A stretch of 64,000 nucleotides of DNA. Origin: Methylotenera mobilis 13. Its GTDB lineage: Bacteria > Pseudomonadota > Gammaproteobacteria > Burkholderiales > Methylophilaceae. The notes beneath the pieces were generated by a model. It was not told the origin of the DNA, ran no database searches, and worked only from the letters and a program-made list of their open reading frames with translations. The stretch covers positions 1,339,362 to 1,403,361 of the forward strand of contig NZ_KB913035.1 of the NCBI RefSeq assembly GCF_000384255.1. The letters are read 5' to 3'. Positions 9,000 to 49,835 of the stretch are shown here, one piece after another; position 1 is the stretch's first letter, and every line of letters starts with the position of its first letter. The position numbers and the translations under genes are program-made.

Positions 9000-10907
9000 A
9001 TGAACGTATTTTACGAAGAAGACGGCAGTTTTAAAGTTGCTAGCATCATGAGCGAGGCCGAAAGCTCGATGCAAATTGAATCAGTAAGCGGTAAGCGGAG
9101 CAAAATCAAGGCGGCCAATGTGTTGTTGCGTTTCGAAGCGCCATTGTCAGGATTTTTAGAAACAGCACAAGCTGAAGCTGAAAAGCTGGAGCTTGATTTT
9201 CTATGGGAATGCTGCGGAGAGTCAGAATTTAATTTTGAAGATTTCGCTCAAGAATATTACGGTAAAAAACCTACGCATTTAGAGGCCGCTGCGATTGCGA
9301 TTCGCCTACACAGTGCGCCTGTGTATTTTAACCGTAAAGGCAAAGGGCGTTATAAAGCAGCGCCAGCTGATATCTTAAAAGCAGCACTAGCTGGACTTGA
9401 AAAGAAACGCTTATTAGCCGAAAAAATGGCAGGGTATGTAGAGCAGCTAAAAGCGCTGACCATGCCAGAAGAGATTATGCAAAAACGTGACATGCTGATT
9501 TACGAGCCTGATAAAAACGCGTTTGAGTACAAGGTGCTTGATACTGCCGCAGGCGCATTGCATTTAAGCCACCTTAAGCTTTTGCATGCATGCGGTGCAA
9601 TTCCATCTGTGCATGATTACCACTTAGGTGCTTTTTTGCGTGAATATTTTGCCAAAGGCACTGACTTTACCGATGCGCAAATGTCTGCCATGCCTGCAGA
9701 TATCAGCTTTGATTTACCAATGGCAGAAGCTGAGGCATTTAGTATTGATGACAGCACCACCACCGAAATTGATGATGCGTTTTCAATGCGCCAGCTTGAT
9801 AATGGTGTGATGTGTGTGGGTATTCATATTGCTGCGCCAGCATTGGGTGTTGCGATTGATAGCGAGCTAGATATCGCCGCCATGCACCGCTTATCAACGG
9901 TTTATATGCCAGGCCACAAAATCACCATGTTGCCTGAGTCTGCAATTAGACCATTCAGTCTAGATGCAGGGCAGATTAAGCCTGTATTGTCGATGTATTT
10001 GCATGTGAACCCAGACTTTACGATTGCACAGCGTCATAGCAAAGTAGAGCTGATTAAAGTGGCAGAGAATCTACGCCATGACACTTTAGAGCCTTACTTT
10101 AATGAAACTACGTTAGCAGCTGACAGTGGTCACCCATATTGGTCTAAATTATTGTTTCTATTCAACTTGGCTGAATCATTAGAAAAAGCGCGTGGCAAGT
10201 ATGACCCAACGAAACCACCACAAGTAGATTACAACTTTTACGTGAATGATGGCAAGGTAAGCATTGTTGGGCGTCATCGTGGTTCACCCATGGATAAGCT
10301 AGTAGCAGAGTTGATGATTGAGGCCAATAGCCAATGGGGTGCGTTATTAGCCAGTAGTCAGGTGCCAGGTTTATATCGCGCGCAAAGTGGCGGTAAGGTG
10401 TATATGACCACTAAGGCTGAGCCGCACCAAGGCTTAGGCGTTGCTCAGTACTCATGGAGTACCTCTCCATTGCGCCGTGCGGTTGATTTAATTAATCAGC
10501 GGCAAATCATGAGTGTTGTGCAAAATCAGCCACCAGTTTATCCGCAGAATAGCGATGCACTCACCACGCATATGCGTAACTTTGAGCTCACTTACAAAGC
10601 GTATAGTGAGTTCCAAATCCGCATGGAGCGCTATTGGTGTTTACAGTATTTAATTCAAGAAAACGTGCAAGAGATTCATGCCACAGTATGGCGAGAAAAC
10701 TTGGTGCGCTTGGATAACTTGCCCTATATGACCAAAGTGTATGGCCTACCAGAGCTAAAAACTGGCACACGGGTGAGTTTGCAAGTGCAAGAGGTGGATA
10801 CGCTGATGATGGATTTACGCACTAAATTCATACAAGTGTTAGAAAATGAAGCAGTAGTAGCCGATGTACCAGTAGCTGACGATGAAAACGAAGTAGAGGC
10901 TGCCTAG
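9000..10907 (+). CDS. RNB-family exoribonuclease (RNase II/R-like)
   Basis: Predicted 3'-5' exoribonuclease of 635 residues. The RNB catalytic domain (about 235-560) contains the metal-site motif S248-I-D-D-S-T-T-T-E-I-D-D259. One position that is Asp in E. coli RNase II is Glu256 here, as in many beta-proteobacterial and organellar relatives. The N-terminal part has no obvious paired cold-shock domains and no C-terminal basic tail, so this is the short atypical subgroup rather than RNase R. The conserved YSWSTSPLRRAVDLINQRQ is the arginine-rich RNA clamp of the family. It overlaps the next gene by one base, so the two are translationally coupled. Confidence 0.88.
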   Translation: MNVFYEEDGSFKVASIMSEAESSMQIESVSGKRSKIKAANVLLRFEAPLSGFLETAQAEAEKLELDFLWECCGESEFNFEDFAQEYYGKKPTHLEAAAIAIRLHSAPVYFNRKGKGRYKAAPADILKAALAGLEKKRLLAEKMAGYVEQLKALTMPEEIMQKRDMLIYEPDKNAFEYKVLDTAAGALHLSHLKLLHACGAIPSVHDYHLGAFLREYFAKGTDFTDAQMSAMPADISFDLPMAEAEAFSIDDSTTTEIDDAFSMRQLDNGVMCVGIHIAAPALGVAIDSELDIAAMHRLSTVYMPGHKITMLPESAIRPFSLDAGQIKPVLSMYLHVNPDFTIAQRHSKVELIKVAENLRHDTLEPYFNETTLAADSGHPYWSKLLFLFNLAESLEKARGKYDPTKPPQVDYNFYVNDGKVSIVGRHRGSPMDKLVAELMIEANSQWGALLASSQVPGLYRAQSGGKVYMTTKAEPHQGLGVAQYSWSTSPLRRAVDLINQRQIMSVVQNQPPVYPQNSDALTTHMRNFELTYKAYSEFQIRMERYWCLQYLIQENVQEIHATVWRENLVRLDNLPYMTKVYGLPELKTGTRVSLQVQEVDTLMMDLRTKFIQVLENEAVVADVPVADDENEVEAA

Positions 10908-40555: not shown

Positions 40556-40573
40556 AAGCAAAATATATTCCAA
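40556..40573 (-). promoter_or_regulatory. Putative sigma-54 promoter of the TonB receptor gene
   Basis: On the minus strand, TTGGAATATATTTTGCTT. The invariant GG (-24) and GC (-12) are separated by exactly 10 bases, and TTGCT at -12 is complete. The expected start site leaves a leader of about 44 bases. Confidence 0.6.
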
Positions 40574-40669
40574 TTTAATATTCAATCCGTGTTGGTTAAT
40601 TCAAGTGATTGAATTAAATTAAATTAAAAAATATGATAACTGTATAGCTAAGTGTTTAACTTAAATTTA

Positions 40670-40738
40670 TGGTTGTAATAAACCAATATTATGGTTGTAT
40701 ATAACCAATTATTGGTTGTAATGAACCAATAATTGGTT
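40670..40738. promoter_or_regulatory. Tandem operator array: three TGGTT-N6-AACCA palindromes plus a half-site
   Basis: Sites at 40670-40685, 40692-40707 and 40713-40728, with a lone TGGTT half-site at 40734-40738. Start-to-start spacing is 22, 21 and 21 bp, i.e. about two helical turns, so all sites face the same side of DNA. The array lies about 80-145 bp from one sigma-54-like promoter and about 100-165 bp from the other, a typical enhancer distance. Confidence 0.8.
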
Positions 40739-40811
40739 GATGATAGTAATCTTTATTTTTAGTATCAAATCATCTCGTTATTTAGGTGGCGTTTTTTATC
40801 ATCTGTGGTGT

Positions 40812-40828
40812 TTGGAATGCTTCTTGCT
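40812..40828 (+). promoter_or_regulatory. Putative sigma-54 promoter of the NtrC-type regulator gene
   Basis: TTGGAATGCTTCTTGCT, with GG-N10-GC spacing and complete TTGCT. It closely resembles the opposing promoter (both TTGGAAT...TTGCT). The start site would lie about 40 bases before the TTG start codon at 40879. Confidence 0.65.
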
Positions 40829-40878
40829 ATTCGTTAAGCAAATAAAGAAAATTAATATTTGTATTTCAGGAGTAATCA

Positions 40879-49657: not shown

Positions 49658-49835
49658 TTGTTTGTTCGTACATTTTGGATGGATAGACGCCTGATATTGG
49701 TTGATTACAACCAGAAATGTAATAGTTTTGTAAATCAATCAAATGGTTAGTGCTTGTTTGGTAAAATTAGAAAATAGTAATAGATTTACTTAAGTACTTA
49801 TTTTTATACTTCACTAACAATAATAGGAGTTAATT

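Follow-up and report, generated by a model that had tools for sequence, protein, structure and literature searches.

A tonB-linked histidine kinase and a receptor-linked sigma-54 regulator as a putative split two-component system of Methylophilaceae

Two-component control of TonB receptors and two-component lanthanide switches for methanol dehydrogenase are both known (PMC4141801; PMC5018670). In Vibrio parahaemolyticus, the Fur-controlled enterobactin system PeuRS-PeuA-TonB2 has its kinase and regulator in a common operon next to the receptor, with tonB genes in the locus as well (PMC4141801). The system reported here is similar in that a two-component system is apparently set over a TonB-dependent receptor. 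In contrast to PeuRS, however, the pair is split, the kinase lying with tonB and the regulator with the receptor, and the regulator is of the NtrC type with -24/-12 promoters. MxaY/MxaB of Methylomicrobium buryatense is likewise a methylotroph case of two-component control tied to lanthanides, with an orphan regulator and a distant kinase. Unlike the present system, it controls methanol dehydrogenase genes, and the excerpted text of its description makes no mention of TonB, LuxR or NtrC (PMC5018670). In the genome of our window (the whole 64 kb stretch of DNA analysed; its genome, G000, is 2.80 Mb in one contig), a gene adjoining xoxF codes for a separate HisKA_3 kinase, which matches LapD_MoxY_N below the cut-off, so that a system of the MxaY/MxaB type differs from the one described below.

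LanP (lanpepsy) of Methylobacillus flagellatus is described as a small protein of the periplasm in which the PepSY domain occurs twice. The window encodes a LanP-like protein that is 49% identical to the single match in the genome taken as that of M. flagellatus L1B, and its metal binding is a prediction. PrsK-PrsR (PEP-CTERM) and other NtrC-type equivalogs share the domain order found here, with scores that stay under their cut-offs. In a term search of a 2025 survey of sigma-54 regulons, TonB came up only for Flavobacteriia, with its control unconfirmed (PMC12316311). In the open-licence PMC literature searched, we found neither a report of the combination seen here nor an account of the regulator, the operator or the tonB-kinase pair.

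An operator array between receptor and regulator

In the window, a TonB-dependent receptor gene and an NtrC-type regulator gene are divergently oriented (Table 1). Reading of the sequence bears out the preliminary description of the DNA between them: three TGGTT-N6-AACCA palindromes, whose starts are spaced 22 and 21 bp, and a half-site are flanked by two outward -24/-12 elements, TTGGAATATATTTTGCT and TTGGAATGCTTCTTGCT, both with GG-N10-GC spacing. Sigma-54 transcription starts, as a rule, about 12 bp past the -12 element. Given such starts, the palindrome centres would lie ~118-174 bp upstream on either side, the usual enhancer distance, as had been claimed for the array. With a matrix trained on the receptor-upstream regions of relatives (consensus of 122 sites, TGGYTGTATACARCCA), only four sites in the 64 kb exceed 20 bits, namely the three palindromes and a site at 49698-49713; the next one reaches 11.7 bits.

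Table 1. Features of the window, with the basis of each assignment
Feature	Position	Strand	Basis
TonB-dependent receptor, 805 aa	38085..40502	-	Pfam Plug and TonB_dep_Rec_b-barrel over cut-off
Receptor's -24/-12 sigma-54-type promoter, TTGGAATATATTTTGCT	40557..40573	-	sequence; element in 52/55 loci
Operator palindrome 1, TGGTTGTAATAAACCA	40670..40685	.	sequence; 21.0 bits; array conserved
Operator palindrome 2, TGGTTGTATATAACCA	40692..40707	.	sequence; 25.6 bits
Operator palindrome 3, TGGTTGTAATGAACCA	40713..40728	.	sequence; 20.1 bits
Half-site TGGTT, 21 bp beyond palindrome 3	40734..40738	+	sequence
Regulator's -24/-12 sigma-54-type promoter, TTGGAATGCTTCTTGCT	40812..40828	+	sequence; element in 6/6 divergent loci, window included
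NtrC-type response regulator, 470 aa	40879..42291	+	Response_reg, Sigma54_activat and HTH_8 over Pfam cut-off
Fourth operator palindrome, TGGTTGTAATCAACCA, 122 bp before LanP-like gene	49698..49713	-	24.2 bits; conserved before LanP-like genes
LanP-like secreted protein, two PepSY stretches, 175 aa	49836..50363	+	Pfam PepSY; PDB 9vy3 match, E 5.7e-50

The regulator has a TTG start codon, with AGGAG at 40868-40872, and the domains of the NtrC type in the order receiver, AAA+ sigma-54 domain and Fis-type HTH. As it has a receiver domain, it is a two-component response regulator. Alignment agrees with the GAFTGA loop attributed to it earlier. The receiver residues E25, D26, D69, T95 and K117 are unchanged in 24 aligned orthologues, the phospho-acceptor residues being invariant, and the recognition region is near constant across orthologues. 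The sigma-54 contact loop itself differs among these 24 sequences (GAFTGA, GAFTSA, GAFTNA and GAYTSA). By the regulator, the closest named relatives of the window are Methylotenera MAGs (92-94% identity), which places it in the Methylophilaceae. Two identities were tried and rejected by NCBIfam, PrsR, which is the best match (368.6 bits vs a cut-off of 502.6), and the NtrC equivalog (343.8 vs 558.6); indeed the regulator is under the cut-off for each NCBIfam family in the best 25 of 114. The receptor also scores under the cut-off of every NCBIfam equivalog, which leaves it in no specific NCBIfam class, and it gave no solved-structure sequence match at 1e-5. The gene rpoN was found in 115 of the 120 family genomes, G000 included.

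An orthologue of the regulator with at least 59% identity is present in 66 of 120 Methylophilaceae genomes, the next matches reaching at most 44%. We fetched 60 regulator loci and added the window. In 58 of the 60, the regulator has a receptor homologue next to it; the two follow each other on one strand, receptor first, in 53 cases and are divergent in five, to which the window is added. The two outward promoters of the preliminary description are thus present in the window and conserved in the divergent loci, where TTGGAATG-N4-TTGCT stands 66-81 bp before the regulator (6/6), but they are not the general design, the one-strand operon being the usual form. By comparison of the loci, the two-way layout is a derived form that goes back to a rearrangement within one genus. 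The widely kept gene order is tilS, tesA, ybbA-/ybbP-like, receptor, regulator, purT, a truncated-haemoglobin-like gene and a DEAD helicase gene, with no kinase among the recurrent neighbours of the regulator in the family loci.

The upstream DNA was readable in 55 loci, after leaving out L068 and L110 (no receptor match) and L086, L105, L107 and L113 (cut contigs or too short an upstream region). A palindrome with at most one mismatch precedes the receptor in 54 of the 55, window included, in a count that involves no training; L063 is the exception. All 55 have a site of at least 15 bits by the matrix, which was trained on these same regions, and 54 have two or three such sites (48/49 operon-type and 6/6 divergent loci). 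The strict element GG.AY.{5}TTG[CA] lies between array and receptor, 55-110 bp before the gene, in 52 loci, against 0.34 expected from first-order shuffles. Fifteen of these 52 have TTGA instead of TTGC at -12, and L100, L102 and L103 are without the strict element. When single loci were scored more loosely against shuffles, 42 of the 58 regions reached p≤0.05 and 28 reached p≤0.01, 16 being non-significant at 0.05; three of the 58 lie on cut contigs. The preliminary description had expected palindromes and GG-N10-GC elements in orthologous regions, and the counts agree with it. Its proposal that the array serves as an enhancer, with the regulator as probable binder acting on itself and on the receptor, is also supported by this comparison.

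The receptor appears to have been exchanged under a constant switch. In the pairs L065/L067, L091/L092, L071/L072 and L058/L059, regulators are 90-97% identical and receptors at the same place 45-50%, and arrays and promoters remain alike. One genome (G006) has a second copy of the regulator (L068), 72% identical to that of the window and with no adjacent receptor.

A kinase gene directly behind tonB

Distant orthologues of the regulator (51-57% identity) are found in Gammaproteobacteria (Methylohalomonas, Methylophaga and many MAGs) and in Ferrovum-type bacteria. In 36 of 38 such loci, a HAMP-HisKA-HATPase kinase gene lies upstream of the regulator; the contigs of the other two (L279 and L291) are cut. 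No recognisable adjacent receptor of the present kind was seen in the 38 loci, apart from one weak match in L278. A distant regulator-kinase locus (L281) also occurs in a metagenome bin titled Klebsiella pneumoniae, a title that is probably a mislabel.

A search of the 120 family genomes for this kinase gave one clear match per genome in 69 of them (199-358 bits; next 105). It is present in 65 of the 66 regulator-bearing genomes vs four of the 54 others (p 8e-28). The regulator occurs without the kinase in G052, and the kinase without an intact regulator in G007 (where the regulator is truncated), G012, G024 and G064; 50 genomes have neither. The mark that we looked for in a cognate pair, adjacency in some lineages together with co-inheritance, is thus seen in 36/38 distant loci and 65/66 genomes. 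The preliminary description had found no kinase for the regulator; the probable cognate kinase is encoded in G000 at ~617.9-619.4 kb, ~760 kb away. Its score for PrsK is 50.8, against a cut-off of 300.

We examined 20 kinase neighbourhoods chosen from the 69 kinase-bearing genomes. In all 20, a tonB-like gene lies directly before the kinase on the same strand, with a gap of at most 51 bp (TonB_C by Pfam in two). An operator of at least 15 bits stands just before tonB, 859-875 bp before the kinase, in four loci (L309, L316, L318 and L320), and these are the only sites of that strength anywhere in the 20. A fifth, of 14.7 bits, takes the same place in L314, making 5/20 within the 1500 bp scanned before the kinase. 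G000 has no operator before its tonB-kinase pair, the best score in 1500 bp being 2.8 bits. The same NDH-2-type gene occurs near the kinase in 20/20 family loci and 12/38 distant loci, quinoprotein-relay hydrolase genes in nine of the 20 family loci, and xoxJ-like genes in six of the 38 distant ones. Among 52 kinases, at least 94% carry an acidic residue at each of four periplasmic positions, numbered 65, 74, 104 and 154 in the aligned L302 fragment.

The operator also accompanies the distant kinases. A palindrome with at most one mismatch lies near the kinase start (-400 to +60 bp) in 17 of 35 distant loci with readable upstream DNA, several of them as pairs 22-23 bp apart. We counted 25 palindromes in ~16 kb near the kinase start vs 16 in ~343 kb elsewhere in these loci. 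In 15 of the 17, the palindrome is 18-47 bp before the start, and repression would therefore be as likely as activation at the distant kinase.

Operators before LanP-like and other genes

Contrary to the preliminary description, the module is not self-contained. Besides some tonB-kinase pairs, the operator precedes LanP-like, beta-propeller and FecI/FecR-type genes. The LanP-like gene of the window lies ~9 kb from the array; its product has two PepSY stretches, 175 aa and, by eye, a signal peptide, which agrees with a secreted LanP of ~19 kDa. A second LanP-like gene of G000 (L022:9183-9704) has an operator at 9016 and is placed in the xox region, near genes for XoxF (TIGR03075), XoxJ (TIGR03871) and a SoxYZ-like carrier (TIGR04557). 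In regulator-bearing genomes, the operator precedes LanP-like genes in 31 of 35 cases, vs none of 15 in regulator-less genomes (p 1.7e-9). The former were judged by mismatches or matrix and the latter by matrix only, and the count leaves out L169 and L189-L191, which were found by their motif, and L022. Among the best 30 LanP-like matches, all in regulator-bearing genomes, an exact TGGYTN6ARCCA stands within 400 bp in 27 cases, and a site with a single mismatch in L137; L121 is without operator and L120 presents a run of N. Five further regulator-bearing genomes add three operators, with none in G047 and G010. In the 15 LanP-bearing genomes without regulator, no operator was found and the best matrix score is below zero. 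These genomes mostly belong to a few small-genome genera, so that independent events are fewer than the counts, and the LanP-like proteins they encode are more distant.

Sigma-54 control of LanP was considered and rejected, as no -24/-12 element is visible by eye and the promoters look sigma-70-like; the operator there could therefore mean activation or repression. Just past the palindrome, LanP promoters share TGTAA direct repeats ~11-12 bp apart (window 49714-49760, L023:2240-2275; by eye). A similar TGTAA pair before xoxF in G000, also by eye, possibly indicates a second shared regulator. No operator of note precedes xoxF in G000, the one genome checked for this (best 9.0 bits, in L023).

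A genome scan for further copies of the array had been advised. The bare TGGTTN6AACCA pattern is not enriched in the whole genome (13 sites vs 14 for the reversed control). The degenerate pattern gives 30 sites vs 19 in G000, so that a single site in this genome is credible only when conserved. The same pattern occurs 29 times, vs one in the control, in what we take to be the genome of M. flagellatus L1B. There the single LanP-like match has an operator 123 bp upstream, and other sites precede FecI-like, kinase, secretin-like and glycosyltransferase-like genes (annotated by eye); two good sites are inside genes (L348 and L349). Across the family, the exact consensus is found in 28/120 genomes and the reversed control in 0/120. 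FecI/FecR-type modules are preceded by the exact consensus in G043 (four sites), G014 (two) and G055 (one), the Pfam check being confined to L172, and so are beta-propeller genes (L178, L179 and L182). Upstream of the beta-propeller homologue of G000 itself stand two sites, spaced by 23 bp (L352). In one genus (L184 and L185), the operator precedes a kinase gene resembling, by eye, that of the HisKA_3 kinase adjoining xoxF in G000.

Several scattered sites may be recorded here. One lies ~142-149 bp before glyA in two genera, represented by G000 and G050 (L354:5001 and L186:5001). Others precede secretin-like, glycosyltransferase-like and pilin-like genes in several genomes (L344, L345, L180 and L022:6749), and pili or secretion may be part of the regulon. 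In the xox region of G000, an operator of 24.5 bits (L022:10105-10340) has no gene clearly downstream; behind it come a box similar to TATATTAAT and what may be a hairpin. This could perhaps be a small RNA; the window, L022 and L023 gave no Rfam match at gathering thresholds. The XoxJ-like protein of G000 (L022:15943-17568, 541 aa) carries ankyrin-type repeats in its C-terminal half.

A putative split system for metal uptake

We lean, with some confidence, towards a split two-component system, made of the TonB-linked kinase and the receptor-linked sigma-54 regulator, that would run a metal-uptake regulon, probably for lanthanides. The membrane histidine kinase encoded directly behind tonB would sense a periplasmic signal and phosphorylate the NtrC-type regulator, which would then assemble on the array. 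Via sigma-54 polymerase, it would activate the receptor promoter and its own, creating a positive loop on uptake. As LanP-like, beta-propeller, FecI/FecR-type and some tonB-kinase genes share this operator, the regulator may govern a wider regulon of envelope and uptake functions, and in genomes where tonB and the kinase are under this operator, a second loop would be closed. Signal and cargo would most likely be a lanthanide, free or chelated, for use by the XoxF methanol dehydrogenase.

The lanthanide signal is the weakest link of this proposal, and is suggested by the company that the genes keep: the LanP-like targets, the second LanP-like gene with its operator in the xox region of G000, and the quinoprotein-relay and xoxJ-like genes. 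Judged by the FecI/FecR-type targets, iron is as good a candidate as lanthanides. According to a review, LanP did not seem to have a direct link with the upregulation of XoxF or the uptake of lanthanides in the conditions that were tried. It is tempting to speculate further on a TonB-coupled lanthanide sensor, in which a kinase encoded with its own TonB would monitor how much lanthanide is available, or how well the TonB-receptor system is working, via a periplasmic helical domain with conserved acidic residues and drive a sigma-54 feed-forward loop on a receptor that is repeatedly exchanged, operator and regulator staying. In this full form the idea is doubtful.

The same machinery could serve another signal, such as iron, a siderophore, methanol or the state of the envelope, with LanP-like proteins as one target of many. 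This is a real, if lesser, possibility, which would fit the sites before FecI/FecR-type modules (Pfam-checked only in L172), the conserved sites before glyA, those before the secretin-like and glycosyltransferase-like genes that we annotated by eye in the genome taken as that of M. flagellatus L1B, and a receptor outside any specific NCBIfam class. LanP-like genes are nevertheless the most regular extra target, and xox and quinoprotein-relay genes recur both near LanP and near the kinase. The signal apart, the palindromes might be bound by another transcription factor with shared targets, the regulator acting elsewhere. Its binding to them is deduced from comparison, the LanP promoters do not look like sigma-54 promoters, and a palindrome 18-47 bp before most distant kinase starts is in no enhancer place. 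We consider this unlikely, because the operator tracks the regulator gene through two layouts, receptor-regulator and kinase-regulator, in several lineages, is absent before LanP-like genes in all 15 regulator-less genomes, and goes with a near constant recognition region.

It is also improbable that the tonB-linked kinase is not the cognate one and that the regulator works with a different kinase or, as a true orphan, with none. The long distance between the two genes in G000, the four of 69 kinase-bearing genomes without an intact regulator and the one of 66 regulator-bearing genomes without the kinase would agree with such a view, as would the presumptive nature of the phosphotransfer. Yet the two are adjacent partners in nearly all distant loci and co-occur in the family, one and the same NDH-2-type gene recurs close to the kinase in both groups, and the operator before tonB-kinase pairs lowers the odds of a foreign kinase slightly. 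Finally, sigma-70-like sites are easily found in AT-rich DNA and three loci are without the strict element, so one might take the TTGG-N10-GC elements as chance and the genes as read from sigma-70 promoters. Their number, far above the shuffled expectation, their constant place between array and gene, and the joint presence of an NtrC-type regulator and rpoN make this highly improbable, and dependence of these promoters on sigma-54 remains the reading that we prefer.

Lanthanide sensing and the control of lanthanide uptake in methylotrophs are largely open, and the regulators named in the parts of the review available are those of the methanol dehydrogenase switch. Our analysis provides a concrete candidate regulator, operator, kinase and list of targets. 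In the putative system, each half of a TonB transport system would hold one partner of a two-component pair, which would make it a clear example of such a split and also of receptor genes exchanged beneath a constant switch. Should the TonB-coupled lanthanide sensor prove true, it would give Methylophilaceae and several gammaproteobacterial lineages a transcriptional regulator of lanthanide acquisition.
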